This document shows, in pieces, positions 18,403-26,869 of a stretch of 45,872 bases of DNA. A program made the position numbers and the translations under genes. Numbering within the stretch: position 1 is the stretch's first letter; each line of letters starts with the position of its first letter. The notes below the pieces were generated by a model. It saw only the letters and a program-made list of their open reading frames with translations. It did not search any database and was not told the origin of the DNA. The DNA lies in NCBI GenBank assembly GCA_937870635.1, contig CALMZP010000013.1:1-45872 (forward strand), written 5' to 3'. This DNA is from an uncultured Acidobacteriota bacterium (GTDB lineage Bacteria; Acidobacteriota; Thermoanaerobaculia; Gp7-AA8).

Positions 18403-18423
<21 letters not shown>
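18184..18423. repeat. Composite palindrome: GTTAACC heptamer arms around a CACGTCACCCTGAG element
   Basis: The left arm (18184-18214) is GGTAACC followed by four GTTAACC units; the right arm (18387-18423) is five GGTTAAC units in the opposite sense. An inner inverted repeat (18277-18370) is nearly identical to that at 16345-16432. The two convergent genes both stop inside the outer arms: the kinase at 18186-18188 and the RND pump at 18403-18405. About 60 nt each side of the inner element shows nothing recognisable. Confidence 0.9.
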
Positions 18424-21617
<3,194 letters not shown>

Positions 21618-21621
<4 letters not shown>

Positions 21622-22763
21622 CGGCTCAGCTCCGAGATGAGAACGCCTTCACGAAGCGTGGGGCTGACAGCGGAGACGATTCGCTCGCCGGCGCGCAGGC
21701 CTGAGAGAACTTCAACGCGGTCGCCGCTCGTCTCACCGAGCGTGACGAGGCGCAGCAGGGCTTTGCCTTCGTCTTCGACGACGAATACGCCGGTCACCTG
21801 CCCGCGGCGGACGACCGCGCGGAGCGGGATCATGATCGCCTGAGCATCGCCCGAGCGAACCTGCACGCGGGCGTAGGAGCCGGATCGCCAGGCCGTTCCC
21901 GCGGGAAGGTCGATGGTGATGAGTGAGGTGCGGGTGCGTGGATCGAGCGACGGGACGACGTGCGCCACACGGCCGCGAATGGAAGCTTTGCCGATCTCGA
22001 CGATGACTTCGTCCGAGACTGCCACGGCCGCCGTCTCGTCGACGGTGGCTTCGACGCGATAGTTCGAGGCGCTGTCGATGGTCAGCAGTGGAGTGCCGGG
22101 CGCGGCCTGCGATCCGGGGTCGATGAGCCGCGCGCTGACGACGCCGTCGAAGGGCGCACGCACGCGGGTGTAGCTGGACATCGTCACGGCCTGCGCGGCG
22201 GAAGCGCCGGCGGCATCCCGCTGGGCGAGAAGTTGCTGGCGGGTCTGGCGCGCGCGATCCAGCTCCGCGGCCGCGGAGAGGTGCTGTGCGCGTGCGCGCT
22301 CATACTCCTGCACGCTCACCGAGCCGCGCTCACGAAGCGCGGCAAACCGTTTGAACGTTGCTTCCGCGAAGGCCGCCTGCGCCTGGGCCGACGCGATCGC
22401 GGCGGTTGCGCTGTCGATCGCTTCCGCTGCCTGGCCCTGGCCGGCGCGCGCGAGCGCAACCTGCGCGTTGGCGTCACGGGGGTCGATCTCGAGCAGGAGC
22501 TGGCCCTTCTTCACGCGGTCGCCTTCGCGGACATGCACGGCGACGACGTCGCCCGCGATCCGCGCCGCGATCGAAGAGATCGCCGATGACCGGACCGTTC
22601 CAGCGAAGGAGTGGAGCCGGGGAACTTTTTGGACGGAGACGGCGCTCACCGGCGCGGAGACCGTCACGGTTTCCTGTTTCGGGGTGTCGCCGTTGCCGCA
22701 TGCCAGCGCGAACGCGCTCACGACCGCAAGCGCGATCGCACTATAGAAACGATTCGACATCAT
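21618..22763 (-). CDS. RND efflux periplasmic adaptor (membrane fusion lipoprotein)
   Basis: 381 residues. The lipobox ALAC appears after [22 protein letters not shown], so the protein is anchored in the inner membrane. The order is half-motif 1 of the lipoyl domain ([26 protein letters not shown]), an Ala/Arg-rich coiled-coil hairpin (about 95-200), half-motif 2 ([22 protein letters not shown]), beta-barrel and membrane-proximal domains. It links the pump to the TolC channel. GGAG lies 6 nt before the ATG at 22763. Its first 23 nt overlap the tolC-like 3' end, and its stop overlaps the pump start. Confidence 0.93.
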
Positions 22764-24069
22764 GTAATTCTCCGGTGGCTCGCAGCAGCTCGGCCTGACC
22801 GATGACGTGGTCATGACGCGCGGCGAGCAGATCGAGTTGGGCGCGCAGCACGGCCGTGTCGGCGCGAAGCTGGTCGCTGATGGTGGTCAGTCCGTTGTCG
22901 TAGCGGTCGCGGATGATGCGCGCGGCCGCCTCCGCCTGGGATGCGGCCTTGGTGGCCAGTGCAACGCGTTGTTCCGCGCTCCGCAGGCGGTGCCAGGCCG
23001 TGACGATCTCCATCGTCACGCGGTCCCGCGCCGCTGCTTCTGCCGCGCGGGCGGCTTCCCGTCCCGCACGCGCTTCGGCAACTCTCGCGAACTTCGAGGC
23101 ATCGAGGAGATCGATCGAGGCCACGAGGCCGAAGGTGCGGTCCGCGCCGGAAGTCGTGAACGTGCGGCCGCTGGCGCCCCACGATGCGAATCCGTCGAGG
23201 CGGGGCAGCAGCGATCCCCGTGCGGTCTGCAGCTCGAGACGGGCGTTGTCCACGGTGGCTCTGGCCGCCGCGAGGTCGCCGCGGCTCGCGCCGCGGGCGA
23301 TCGCATGCTCGAGAGTGACGGCGGCGAAGGCCTTCTCGGACGTCGCTGAAGAGATTTCGATCGGCTCCTGCACGGGCCGTTGCAGGAAGGTGACGAGTGA
23401 CGCGCGGGCGATCGCCGCCGCCCCTTCGGCATCGACGAGCTGTTGCCGAAACTCGGCCAGCTGCACTTCCGCGGCGAGGAGGTCCGATTCGACGATCAGA
23501 CCTTCAGACAGTTTGTCGCGGATGGAGGCGACTTCGGCCTCCGCCGCCTTCACGGCGGCTTCGGTGACGGCGCGACGCTCGTCGGCGATGGCGACCCCGT
23601 AATACGCCCGCAGGACGCCGACGATCGTCTGCTGCCGAAGCTCCTCCGCGCCGTGCTTCGATCCGGAAACCGCGTTTTGTGTCTGGCGTGTGGCGTTCAA
23701 CCGGCGGAACTGATCGAAGAACGTATAGCGGATGTTCAGTGCGAGACGGTCGTTCCGGAGGGAGGACGGATCGTTGAGAAAGGCCGGATCGAAGTGCTGC
23801 TGTCCGAACCGCCCCTGCTCGAGCAGCGACCCGAAGACGAAGACCGGGTTGTCGCTCTGCGTCGAAGACGCCGTCGCGTCGATTCTCGGGAGCCATCCCG
23901 ACCGGGCCCGCGCGGCACGTGCCTCAGCCATGCCGACGGATGCCGCGGCCGACACCATCACCGGATTCTTCTCGAGGGCCTCCGCAACGGCCTGGCTCAG
24001 CGTGAGAGGCTGCGCGAAGGCCGTCGCCGTGCCCCCAAGGAGCATCATCATGAAGAGAAGCTGTCTCAC
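22741..24069 (-). CDS. TolC family outer-membrane efflux channel
   Basis: 442 residues from a GTG at 24069 that overlaps the DUF2892 stop codon (GTGA). The signal peptide is MRQLLFMMMLLGGTATAFA, then QPLTLSQAVAEALEKNPVM, the classic OEP repeat start. Two OEP repeats follow, each with a long helical hairpin; the second starts near LEHAIARGASRGDLAAARATVDNARLEL. It is the outer-membrane exit duct of the RND pump encoded downstream. Longer upstream starts run through the DUF2892 gene in another frame and are rejected. Translation is coupled on both sides. Confidence 0.92.
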   Translation of the reverse strand: MRQLLFMMMLLGGTATAFAQPLTLSQAVAEALEKNPVMVSAAASVGMAEARAARARSGWLPRIDATASSTQSDNPVFVFGSLLEQGRFGQQHFDPAFLNDPSSLRNDRLALNIRYTFFDQFRRLNATRQTQNAVSGSKHGAEELRQQTIVGVLRAYYGVAIADERRAVTEAAVKAAEAEVASIRDKLSEGLIVESDLLAAEVQLAEFRQQLVDAEGAAAIARASLVTFLQRPVQEPIEISSATSEKAFAAVTLEHAIARGASRGDLAAARATVDNARLELQTARGSLLPRLDGFASWGASGRTFTTSGADRTFGLVASIDLLDASKFARVAEARAGREAARAAEAAARDRVTMEIVTAWHRLRSAEQRVALATKAASQAEAAARIIRDRYDNGLTTISDQLRADTAVLRAQLDLLAARHDHVIGQAELLRATGELHDVESFL

Positions 24070-24287
24070 GACGCGTCCCGAACCTCGCCATGCATGGCGC
24101 ACTCGCGAACGCCGAAACCGCGGAGGACGGCCATCATCGGGCACCAGTTGGTGAATGCGGACTGGAGAAGATTGAGGCCGACGAAGGCGGTGAAGAGGTA
24201 GAACCAGGGGCTGAGGAGCCAGCCGAGGGCGACCGAGAGGAGGATGAAGAAGCCGGCGATGAGGCGAAGGATGCGTTCGAGGTGCAT
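24066..24287 (-). CDS. DUF2892 (YgaP transmembrane-like) membrane protein
   Basis: 73 residues with two hydrophobic segments (IAGFFILLSVALGWLLSP and FYLFTAFVGLNLLQSAFTNWCP). The NWCPMMAVLRGFGV motif is the family signature. Related domains form the membrane part of E. coli YgaP, which also carries a rhodanese domain. The function here is unknown; the two Cys (NWCP and RECAMHG) could be redox active. It is the first gene of the efflux operon, under a strong-looking promoter, and overlaps the tolC-like start by 4 nt. Confidence 0.87.
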   Translation of the reverse strand: MHLERILRLIAGFFILLSVALGWLLSPWFYLFTAFVGLNLLQSAFTNWCPMMAVLRGFGVRECAMHGEVRDAS

Positions 24288-24324
24288 GTCGATTGATTCT
24301 CCTGCTGCTGGTCAAACCAGCTTG

Positions 24325-24354
24325 TTGCGAACTATATGCCCATAAAGTTATATT
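24325..24354 (+). promoter_or_regulatory. Promoter for arsR, probably giving a leaderless mRNA
   Basis: Plus strand: -35 TTGCGA (24325-24330), an 18-nt spacer, and -10 TATATT (24349-24354). The expected start site is about 24361, only about 3 nt before the first ATG (24364), and neither this ATG nor the one at 24376 has a Shine-Dalgarno sequence. An AT-rich stretch with weak dyad symmetry (24331-24354) shared with the divergent promoter is the likely ArsR operator. Confidence 0.5.
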
Positions 24355-24359
24355 GTCAA
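24331..24359 (-). promoter_or_regulatory. Sigma-70 promoter for the DUF2892-tolC-adaptor-RND operon
   Basis: Minus strand: -35 TTGACA (24359-24354), a 17-nt spacer, and -10 TATAGT (24336-24331). This is near consensus and about 45-70 nt upstream of the DUF2892 ATG at 24287. It overlaps the divergent arsR promoter almost completely. A CTGGT-CAA-ACCAG palindrome (24308-24320) lies in the predicted 5' UTR. Confidence 0.7.
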
Positions 24360-24363
24360 CCGT

Positions 24364-24735
24364 ATGATCTGTACCATGAGCGCGAAACGACTGTCGCCGG
24401 CGGCGATCGAGATGGTCGCCAACCGGTTCCGGATCCTGGGGGAGCCCCTGCGAATTCGCATCCTTCAAGAGTTGCAGGATGGGGAGAAGAGTGTGAGCGA
24501 GCTCGTCACGGCTGTCGGGTCGACCCAGCCGAACGTGAGCAAGCACCTGCGCATCCTTCAGGAAGCGGGGTTCATCGGGCGCCGCCAGGAAGGGAATCTC
24601 GTTTATTGTCATATCGAGGACCCGTCCGTATTCGAGCTATGCAACGTCGTATGCGCGACGCTGGGCGAACAGCTCTCCCTGAACGCGCGGATGGCGGCCG
24701 AGCTCAGCCGGGGCATGGCGCCGCGCAGGCGATAA
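24364..24735 (+). CDS. ArsR family transcriptional repressor
   Basis: 123 residues, one winged-helix domain. The recognition helix is TQPNVSKHLRIL (about 54-65), preceded by GEKSVSELVTAVG and followed by the wing (GRRQEGNLVYCHIED). Cys82, Cys93 and Cys97 (VYCHI, ELCNVVC) are candidate sensor thiols. The Cys in helix 2 used by BigR/YgaV-type persulfide sensors is not present at that position. It is divergent from the RND efflux operon and their promoters overlap, so it very likely represses that operon and itself. The inducer is not identifiable. A start at 24376 (MSAKRLSP) is the alternative. Confidence 0.88.
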   Translation: MICTMSAKRLSPAAIEMVANRFRILGEPLRIRILQELQDGEKSVSELVTAVGSTQPNVSKHLRILQEAGFIGRRQEGNLVYCHIEDPSVFELCNVVCATLGEQLSLNARMAAELSRGMAPRRR

Positions 24736-24778
24736 GGACTTGCCACTTGCTTTGGGCTCCATGTAATTTTGCGGGGTC

Positions 24779-25159
24779 GTGCTGACTCCCGCCCTCAACC
24801 AGTTCATCGCTACCAACATCCAGAGTGTGGAAGAGGTGGAGATCGTCAGCCTGCTCAGCCGTTCGCCAGAGACATTCTGGAGCTCCGAGGCGATCGCGAG
24901 CCAGGTGGGTCTGAACCAGGACGTCGTGGCGGCGAAGGCCCGGGAGCTGGTGCGGCGGGGCATCCTGGCCGCCGGGGAGTCCGGACCGGTGTTCCGATAT
25001 GCACCGTCCAGTCCTGCGATACGGGACAGCGTCACGTCTCTGCTCTCCATGTATCGCGATCACCGCATTTCGGTGATCAACGCGATCTACTCGGCGAACC
25101 TGACGCGATTGCGCAGCTTCGCCGACGCGTTCAAGCTCGGCGGCGGAGGGAACCAGTGA
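24779..25159 (+). CDS. Winged-helix DNA-binding protein, unknown family
   Basis: 126 residues from a GTG at 24779 with GCGGGG upstream. The segment SVEEVEIVSLLSRSPETFWSSEAIASQVGLNQDVVAAKARELVRRGIL reads as a MarR/GntR-like winged helix (helix-turn-helix about 34-62), followed by a long C-terminal helix (about 85-115) that may dimerise. It is the first gene of a three-gene unit; its TGA overlaps the GTG of the next gene. It is likely a regulator of, or a partner for, the two DUF5985 membrane proteins. Family assignment is weak. Confidence 0.65.
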   Translation: MLTPALNQFIATNIQSVEEVEIVSLLSRSPETFWSSEAIASQVGLNQDVVAAKARELVRRGILAAGESGPVFRYAPSSPAIRDSVTSLLSMYRDHRISVINAIYSANLTRLRSFADAFKLGGGGNQ

Positions 25160-25416
25160 TCGGCCTGATCGTGTATGGCCTGTGCGTCGTCACCAGCGCG
25201 CTCTGCGCCGTGCTTCTCCTTCGCGGCTATGCGCGGAGCCGCGTCCCTCTGCTGCTGTGGAGCGGCCTCTGTTTCATCGGGCTGGCGCTGAACAATCTGC
25301 TTCTGTTCATCGATGTGCAGATGGCGCCGATGATCGATCTGTCGACCTGGCGCACAGTGCCGGCCCTGGTCGGCGTGCTGCTCCTGCTCTACGGCATGAT
25401 CTGGGAGACGCGATGA
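25156..25416 (+). CDS. DUF5985-like small membrane protein (first of a pair)
   Basis: 86 residues with about three hydrophobic helices (IGLIVYGLCVVTSALCAVLLL, LLLWSGLCFIGLALNNLLLFIDV, VPALVGVLLLLYGMIW). It starts at a GTG that overlaps the preceding stop (GTGA) and ends in an ATGA overlap with the next gene, so three genes are translationally coupled. The middle segment RSRVPLLLWSGLCFIGLALNN resembles the second member's RDRLFALFATAFGLLALQRL, so the pair are divergent paralogues. Function unknown. Confidence 0.72.
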   Translation: MIGLIVYGLCVVTSALCAVLLLRGYARSRVPLLLWSGLCFIGLALNNLLLFIDVQMAPMIDLSTWRTVPALVGVLLLLYGMIWETR

Positions 25417-25661
25417 CGCAGTCGATCATCAGCGGCGCCCTGGCCATGGCGTACTTCATCGCCGCCATGTTCTTCCTCAAGTACTGGACCGCGGCGCGCG
25501 ATCGTCTGTTCGCACTCTTCGCAACCGCGTTCGGCCTGCTGGCCCTTCAGCGGCTGGCCCTTCCGTACGCGCCGCCAGACCTGGTCTGGCTCCTCTACGT
25601 CGTCCGCCTTCTGGCCTTCGTGCTGATCATCATCGCCATCGTGGACAAGAACCGGGCCTGA
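25413..25661 (+). CDS. DUF5985-like small membrane protein (second of a pair)
   Basis: 82 residues, three predicted membrane helices (SIISGALAMAYFIAAMFFLKYW, LFALFATAFGLLALQRLAL, VWLLYVVRLLAFVLIIIAIVD). The FLKYWTAARDRLFALFA segment is the feature I associate with DUF5985. It starts inside the stop of the preceding gene (ATGA). Two such proteins next to each other could form a hetero-oligomer in the inner membrane. No enzymatic residues are evident. Confidence 0.75.
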   Translation: MTQSIISGALAMAYFIAAMFFLKYWTAARDRLFALFATAFGLLALQRLALPYAPPDLVWLLYVVRLLAFVLIIIAIVDKNRA

Positions 25662-25783: not shown

Positions 25784-26173
25784 CTACAGCGCGATCTCGA
25801 TCTCGAACTCCGGCGGATCGAAGAGCGTCTTCTTCACCGCGCACTGATCGACGGCGCGGTGCAGCGCTTTCTCGTACTTTTCCGGGAACCCCGCCGGCGC
25901 CTTCATATGGATCTGAATCGTCGTCAGGCGTTTCGTGGCCGGATCGCGCACCGGATTCAGCGACAGGGCCAGCCCTTCGGTCGACAGCGCGCGCTCCTGG
26001 CAGAAACGCAGGGCGTAGAAGCCCATGCACGTCGCGATGGAGGCCAGGAAGAGATCGAAGGGCGACATCGCGGTGTTCTGGCCGATGGGTTCAGGCTGGT
26101 CGGTGGGAACGGTGTTGCCGCGGTACGTCGCATCCACCCGAACGCCGCCAGGGAAACTGACTGTGATGCTCAT
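25784..26173 (-). CDS. OsmC/YhfA family peroxide or thiol-redox protein
   Basis: 129 residues from the ATG at 26173 (AAGG 9 nt upstream). The two family cysteines are present: IATCMGFYALRFC and DQCAVKKTL. SPFDLFLASIATC and the C-terminal PPEFEIEIAL fit YhfA-type OsmC proteins. These small dimers reduce organic peroxides using a Cys pair, or act on thiols. It is divergent from the putative seleno-rhodanese gene (111 nt apart), which may indicate a shared sulfur or redox theme. Longer starts run through the divergent gene and are rejected. Confidence 0.9.
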   Translation of the reverse strand: MSITVSFPGGVRVDATYRGNTVPTDQPEPIGQNTAMSPFDLFLASIATCMGFYALRFCQERALSTEGLALSLNPVRDPATKRLTTIQIHMKAPAGFPEKYEKALHRAVDQCAVKKTLFDPPEFEIEIAL

Positions 26174-26284
26174 GCGTCTTACCTTCGCGCGCAGTCCGCC
26201 CGGGGAAGCGTGATCAAAGGGACATTGCGTTGTGACGCTTCTCCGTGTACGGTTGCGCGCTGAAAAACTGAGGAACGCAATTTC

Positions 26285-26869
26285 ATGGCCAAACGAACAC
26301 AAGATCGTATCCAGCAGAATGAGGCGGCGGCGCCGTCTCGCGGACCGCTGATCGTCCTGACCGCGGGCAGCATCGCCGTCGCCGCGCTCGTCGGATGGGC
26401 GCTGACCCGAACCGTAGAGCCCGCTGACCCGGAAACCTCGACCGTCGCGACGTCCTCGCCCGCTCCCGCCACCTCTTCCGCTCCACCGTCCGTCCCGCCC
26501 GCCGGCGCGACACCGCCGCCGGTGCAGACGCCGGAAGGGGCGGTGCCTCGCATCAACGCCGAGCAGCTGAAGCAGATGGTCGACACCGGCGCCATCACTC
26601 TCGTCGACGTACGCGACTCCGTGTCGTACAACAACGGACACATTCCCGGTGCGATTCACATCCCGTTCGCACGCGTGGAAGCGGAGGCCTCGCGGCTGCC
26701 CAAAGACAAGCCGATCGTCGCGTACTGTACGTGACCAAACGAAGAATCGAGCGCCGGTGCGGCGCTCATCCTTCAAAGACAGGGTTTCAACAACGTCTCT
26801 GCTCTCCTCGGCGGTCTCGAGGCGTGGCGCGGCCAGGGCTTCGAAGTCCGCAGCGGCCTCGCGCCCTGA
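26285..26869 (+). CDS. Membrane-anchored rhodanese-like protein, probable selenoprotein (in-frame TGA at 26732-26734)
   Basis: Read through one TGA this is 194 residues. Residues 21-40 form a membrane helix, 45-85 a Pro/Ala/Thr linker, and about 88-190 a rhodanese domain (TLVDVRDSVSYNNGHIPGAIH, then KPIVAYCT). The frame then meets TGA at codon 150 and continues without any shift as PNEESSAGAALILQRQG and GGLEAWRGQGFEV, the rest of a normal rhodanese fold, to a TGA at 26867-26869. Homologues from memory read YC-x-C-PNE here, so TGA replaces a Cys codon in the active-site loop. A GC-rich hairpin with a GGU loop lies 14 nt past the TGA (26749-26767), where bacterial SECIS elements sit. Alternatives are a nonsense mutation or a sequence error. 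Confidence 0.75.
26749..26767 (+). promoter_or_regulatory. Candidate bacterial SECIS hairpin
   Basis: GAGCGCC-GGTGC-GGCGCTC: a perfect 7-bp stem (8 if the outer loop G and C pair) whose loop begins GGU. The stem base is 14 nt and the loop G's are 22-23 nt after the TGA at 26732-26734. In E. coli fdhF the essential loop GU lies about 20-21 nt after its UGA, so geometry and the loop G/U fit. The stem also encodes protein (SSAGAAL), as bacterial SECIS must. Confidence 0.65.

Follow-up and report, generated by a model that had tools for sequence, protein, structure and literature searches.

A predicted selenocysteine-containing, membrane-anchored rhodanese from an uncultured Acidobacteriota bacterium and its exported relatives

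Known selenoprotein rhodaneses and the present locus

Selenoproteins of the rhodanese type were already listed in metagenome work of 2005 and 2008, in which Sec-containing "rhodanese-related sulfurtransferases" were predicted computationally from environmental DNA of the Sargasso Sea and GOS collections (PMC1088965, PMC2398784), much as the protein described here was. Those forms are marine and fall in COG2897/COG0607, and in the accessible parts of the two reports a CxU motif, export and placement in metal islands are not described. Recent reviews include a CxU selenoprotein rhodanese, represented by the model NF041203 (PMC9312934, PMC13188914); one of them designates it form 3 and discusses other selenoproteins that are implicated in metal resistance (PMC13188914). 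TsoB (NF045694), a rhodanese/DsbD fusion-like protein, is another selenoprotein with a rhodanese domain, and it carries a double Sec (UxxxxU) together with a DsbD-like part.

The gene considered here lies in a window (the whole stretch of DNA that was analyzed, 45,872 nucleotides) from an uncultured Acidobacteriota bacterium, and its features are collected in Table 1. The best NCBIfam match of its product is NF041203, "rhodanese-related (seleno)protein" (rhodanese_LYCAU), with which it shares the rhodanese domain, a YC-x-U/C loop and the existence of both seleno and Cys forms. Features that set the window protein apart from NF041203 are its membrane anchor, its long linker and its YCTUPxEESS loop. 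Its match begins at position 17 of the 126-position model and scores 84.3 bits, and the relatives tested score 71-111 bits; membership was rejected because all of these values are below the cut-off of 115. Against TsoB the window protein scores 26.7 bits (cut-off 805), and it has one Sec and neither the double-Sec motif nor the DsbD-like part. The fold and the canonical Cys position are common to the single-domain rhodaneses GlpE and PspE, but standard loops of that type lack Sec, contain a single Cys and are shorter. A literature search on Sec rhodaneses with membrane anchors, in Anaerolinea, or in connection with Chloroflexi ArsR/cadmium/zinc found none in the collection of papers searched.

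CxU rhodanese selenoproteins are already catalogued, and the exported branch to which the window protein belongs scores under the NF041203 cut-off. The new element is that, in two phyla, such genes repeatedly lie next to those for ArsR, P-type ATPase, CzcCBA and CDF proteins.

Table 1. Features of the predicted Sec rhodanese gene and its neighbors, in window coordinates
Feature	Coordinates	Strand	Basis or remark
Predicted Sec-containing rhodanese gene	26285..26869	+	194 residues, Sec150; standard caller halts at 149
GAGGAA, ribosome-binding-like	26270..26275	+	ATG 9 nt further on; sequence inspection
Likely single transmembrane anchor, residues 20-41	26342..26407	+	by-eye sequence inspection
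Pro/Ala/Ser/Thr-rich linker	26408..26542	+	low confidence in AlphaFold2 model
Rhodanese domain, residues 88-188	26546..26848	+	PF00581, AlphaFold2, Foldseek
TGT, Cys148, on canonical rhodanese catalytic Cys	26726..26728	+	alignment and model
In-frame TGA, predicted Sec150	26732..26734	+	ORF reading and relatives
SECIS-like hairpin GAGCGCC-GGTGC-GGCGCTC	26749..26767	+	apical loop 26756-26760
Terminal TGA stop	26867..26869	+	past completed domain; translation
OsmC-family gene, divergent from rhodanese	25784..26173	-	pair also in relative G002 (L099)
ArsR/SmtB-family metalloregulator	24364..24735	+	HTH_metalloreg 82.9 bits, cut-off 55
RND efflux set	18403..24612	-	three genes
RND permease	18403-21621	-	scores under CusA/CzcA cut-off
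RND membrane-fusion gene	21618-22814	-	part of RND set
RND outer-membrane channel	22741-24612	-	part of RND set

Decoding of the in-frame UGA and the downstream hairpin

The sequence-only reading had described a frame that crosses a TGA in the active-site loop and then completes a rhodanese domain, together with a membrane anchor, a Cys-x-Sec loop, a perfect 7-bp hairpin with a GGU-starting loop 14 nt downstream, and a product that a standard gene caller would end at 149 residues. Each of these features was recovered. The PF00581 HMM spans the TGA of the window ORF (80.9 bits, cut-off 22.2), the loop reads YCT-U-PNEESSAGAAL with Cys148-Thr-Sec150, a hydrophobic segment is apparent by eye at the position of the proposed anchor, the ORF runs on to its full length, and the hairpin begins 14 nt past the TGA with a 5-nt loop that opens GGU. 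The machinery for selenocysteine that the same reading had looked toward (selA, selB, selC and selD) is also complete in the genome of the window, which is 4.52 Mb in size and 98.7% complete: SelA (404 bits), SelB (349.7 bits), SelD (369 bits) and tRNA-Sec (71 bits; tRNA-SeC with anticodon tca in ARAGORN) are all present. The SelD gene carries an in-frame TGA of its own, at TTGGUACK, and of the 61 genomes searched in the group, the window's own among them, 57 have a SelB that scores above its cut-off.

The window hairpin has a folding energy of -19.1 kcal/mol (RNAfold), a value that is modestly low in comparison with synonymous-codon shuffles (z -1.84, p 0.043), and the mean z of the group A hairpins against such shuffles is -1.17. 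Free energy by itself is weak as SECIS evidence, and codon conservation was therefore used instead. In 48 relatives, drawn as loci by protein similarity with the codon disregarded and counted when they had the searched loop pattern, the codon at the TGA column is TGA in 38 and Cys (TGC or TGT) in 10, with no instance of TAA, TAG or another residue; two paralogues in the window's own genome have Cys there, and the alignment of Cys with the TGA that had been anticipated for homologues is thus observed. Codon +22 is GCC in all 38 TGA forms and in one of the 10 Cys forms, codon +25 is NGT in 35 of the 38 as against none of the 10, and the hairpin loop G is present in every TGA form; these sequences are related to each other, and the counts are hence given without a formal probability. 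Both codons concerned are rare among their synonyms in the window genes, where CGT supplies 11.8% of the Arg codons and GGT 13.5% of the Gly codons, and the NGT kept in the TGA forms is therefore a synonymous-site constraint that fits the GU of the loop.

TGA copies retain a core hairpin with loop NGU, whereas Cys copies lose the hairpin. Among 80 distinct copies found by pattern, the inner five stem pairs are kept in 72-80, two of the five being fixed by the search pattern itself, and the outer two pairs are not kept. The full 7-bp stem was rejected as the conserved element, since the inner 5 bp alone hold in Chloroflexota. Some of the conserved stem positions coincide with a stretch that is also conserved in the protein, S-A-[RG]-[AV]-[AV]; despite this overlap, the choice of codons argues for an RNA element. 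It is the conservation of TGA at one column and of the core hairpin that goes beyond chance.

With the Sec machinery, the TGA/Cys pattern of the column and the loop codons kept in TGA forms, the selenocysteine reading has strong support: SelB and tRNA-Sec would insert selenocysteine at UGA 26732 under the direction of the downstream hairpin, and the gene almost certainly encodes a genuine selenoprotein. It is very improbable that the TGA is read as another amino acid (Trp, or by near-cognate suppression) without Sec; the inserted residue cannot be seen from comparative DNA, but homologues have Cys at the column and never Trp, the gene itself uses TGA as its ordinary stop codon, and tRNA-Sec and SelB are at hand, SelB nearly throughout the group. 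More improbable still is a nonsense mutation in a pseudogene or truncated gene, for although a single base change turns TGC/TGT into TGA and the assembly is fragmented (171 contigs), the same TGA with an intact domain 3' of it occurs in the 38 relatives and in 89 further stretches from two phyla and more, a paralogue in the same genome matches, the loop codons are kept in TGA forms alone, and the Sec machinery is full. Many assemblies made independently of one another carry the TGA, which makes an error in base calling very unlikely, and pseudogene and sequencing error were both rejected on this ground.

The sequence-only reading had further supposed a replacement of Cys by Sec. Cys homologues do exist, as it required, but the proposed direction fared less well. 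A tree on 100 columns nests the Cys forms within the Sec clade in group A and in group B, and requires at least three separate changes to Cys on well-supported branches, although it has few columns and open forks and its Chloroflexota rows were chosen by TGA pattern. This suggests that Sec is ancestral in the group and favors loss of Sec to Cys over a recent gain; Cys-to-Sec gain was set aside, with the same caution over columns and forks.

Export, fold and proposed chemistry of the Cys-x-Sec loop

In the translation with TGA read as Sec, the N-terminus ahead of the hydrophobic segment is basic, and the rhodanese domain should therefore face outside. The window product is thus probably a single-pass membrane protein with an extracytoplasmic rhodanese domain. 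Relatives have, by eye, signal peptides, lipoboxes or membrane anchors, and because three different targeting signals are seen, the predicted extracytoplasmic location of the exported rhodanese group is well supported.

AlphaFold2 models the rhodanese domain with a pLDDT of about 95, and the best Foldseek matches are rhodaneses (3tp9, 3nhv, 3gk5, BpPRF and GlpE; top E 3.3e-11). Cys148 directly follows strand 144-147 in the model. In the alignment with 3tp9 it falls on the canonical Cys of YCRTGG--RS, Sec150 lies at +2, and the window loop is two residues longer than the usual rhodanese loop. The earlier suggestion that Sec stands in for the catalytic Cys thus survives in part: Cys does align at the TGA column, but the canonical Cys148 is retained and Sec is found two residues beyond it.

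Sulfur or thiol redox chemistry is predicted for the window protein because of the rhodanese fold, a prediction that we regard as evenly poised. Cys148 would take up sulfane sulfur or an oxidizing equivalent, and Sec150 would resolve it via a Cys-Sec selenenylsulfide, or the two roles may be reversed; formation of such a selenenylsulfide in the loop is plausible. The protein would then be a fast-acting sulfurtransferase or thiol-selenol redox enzyme outside the cytoplasm, re-reduced by a Dsb- or thioredoxin-like partner, and it may protect or repair exported thiols under metal stress. The explanation as a whole, a Sec membrane rhodanese with Cys-Sec sulfur/thiol chemistry and a role in metal stress, is one that we moderately favor.

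Gene neighborhoods, paralogues and distribution

The Sec rhodanese of the window lies about 1.5 kb from the ArsR/SmtB regulator and the RND set, and all of these, with the OsmC gene, are kept in relative G002 (L099). Two adjoining DUF5985-matching ORFs lie between the ArsR and OsmC genes (24769-25661). The same genome has a paralogue (C90:14402-14953) that is 43% identical over the alignment. It shares the TGA column, its loop reads YCTUPAEESSARAAL, and its hairpin, GAGCGCC-CGGGC-GGCGCTC, has the same stem as the window hairpin. This paralogue sits in a metal island with a P1B-ATPase, CzcC-, CzcB- and CzcA-like genes, a P-II-like gene and a CDF gene; the CusA/CzcA RND of the island scores 1368 bits, whereas in all 4.5 Mb of the genome no more than three P1B-ATPases and two CDFs exceed their cut-offs. 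In this genome the heavy-metal island at L018 4409-18244 takes in P1B-ATPase, CzcCBA-like RND, P-II-like, Sec rhodanese and CDF genes and, in addition, a DsbA-like gene. Two more paralogues have Cys at the column (C91, YCTCPAEESS; C106, YCACVKEHT), and the presence of Sec and Cys paralogues in one genome makes the advantage of Sec testable.

Across 91 neighborhoods, ArsR genes occur in 20, P1B-ATPases in 20 and CDF genes in 9. Same-strand genes predominate in these raw counts, which include closely related species. A CDF gene is immediately 3' of the Sec rhodanese in both Acidobacteriota and Chloroflexota, and other recurrent neighbors are SCO1-like genes, DsbA-like genes and a second rhodanese, a lipoprotein. 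Placement beside metal genes suggests extracytoplasmic thiol/sulfur repair under metal stress and would link selenium use to metal-resistance islands, but a metal-stress role drawn from gene order is tentative. It is weakest for the window copy, which has ArsR and an RND pump nearby, because no P1B-ATPase or CDF gene is near and the pump scores below the heavy-metal cut-off.

A protein of this kind might instead be an ordinary extracytoplasmic thiosulfate/persulfide sulfurtransferase that is near metal genes merely through shared islands. We consider this rather unlikely; a persulfide dioxygenase-rhodanese fusion and GlpE are among the solved structures closest in fold, and the partner of the window copy is OsmC rather than a metal exporter, but a same-strand adjoining CDF gene in both phyla is more than loose linkage would give. 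It is unlikely, too, that the protein is no enzyme and that the CxU pair binds or senses soft metals outside the membrane for adjoining efflux systems. ArsR, P1B-ATPase, CzcCBA and CDF neighbors would suit such a function, and a recent review states that Sec may coordinate metal in several other selenoproteins (PMC13188914); the rhodanese fold favors sulfur chemistry, as does the canonical Cys that is kept, and around the loop of the window domain no additional metal ligands are obvious. The most extended form of the metal-stress proposal, speculative and in our view unlikely, is that exported CxU rhodaneses would constitute a dedicated selenium-dependent arm of metal efflux in Acidobacteriota and Chloroflexota, co-regulated through ArsR with Zn/Cd-type exporters, in which extracytoplasmic Cys-Sec restores metal-poisoned thiols or persulfides.

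The relatives in the 48-locus set form four groups by their loops: that of the window (anchored or lipoprotein, YCTUPxEESS), a secreted group (YCAUxxEHTSA), a group fused to a membrane domain (LYCTUPNEAS) and a group of short proteins that look soluble (YCTUPNEHSS). In a wider set of 297 genomes from the phylum, 50 have close matches; many of these contain one TGA in frame, counted irrespective of its column. A scan for TGA forms in 84,980 species genomes gave the 89 further stretches, mainly from Anaerolineae and other Chloroflexota, with several from Thermoanaerobaculia or other Acidobacteriota and one from Acidimicrobiia; forms of Thermomicrobia type, in which the rhodanese is joined to a larger membrane protein, also occur. 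Genus-level relatives of the window are the Thermoanaerobaculia records G002 (L099), G008 (L110) and G015 (L134), and this kinship places the window in that group. This distribution would extend the use of selenocysteine to extracytoplasmic rhodaneses across two phyla. Since gene callers halt at the TGA, members of the group would be annotated as truncated, with half of the domain missing. Two named strains also carry members, Thermanaerothrix daxensis GNS-1 (L145) and Thermalbibacter longus CFH 74404 (L095, a fused form), which opens the way to experiments.

Several further architectures were observed. A separate group of TGA rhodaneses with the loop LYCTUPNEAS (L053-L058, L062, L070, L075, L081 and L082) is fused at the C-terminus to a multi-pass membrane domain that is DedA-like by eye. 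In L094 and L095, whose hosts are Thermalbibacter longus and bacterium HR26, the Sec rhodanese is fused to a large membrane protein that resembles a cation/proton antiporter. Zinc-ribbon-like CxxC motifs precede the membrane segment in eight Chloroflexota loci (L088, L090, L091, L100, L127, L136, L140 and L164). In another eight loci (L083, L087, L097, L107, L121, L128, L153 and L156), a lipoprotein rhodanese with a Cys loop lies directly 3' of the Sec rhodanese and shares its strand.
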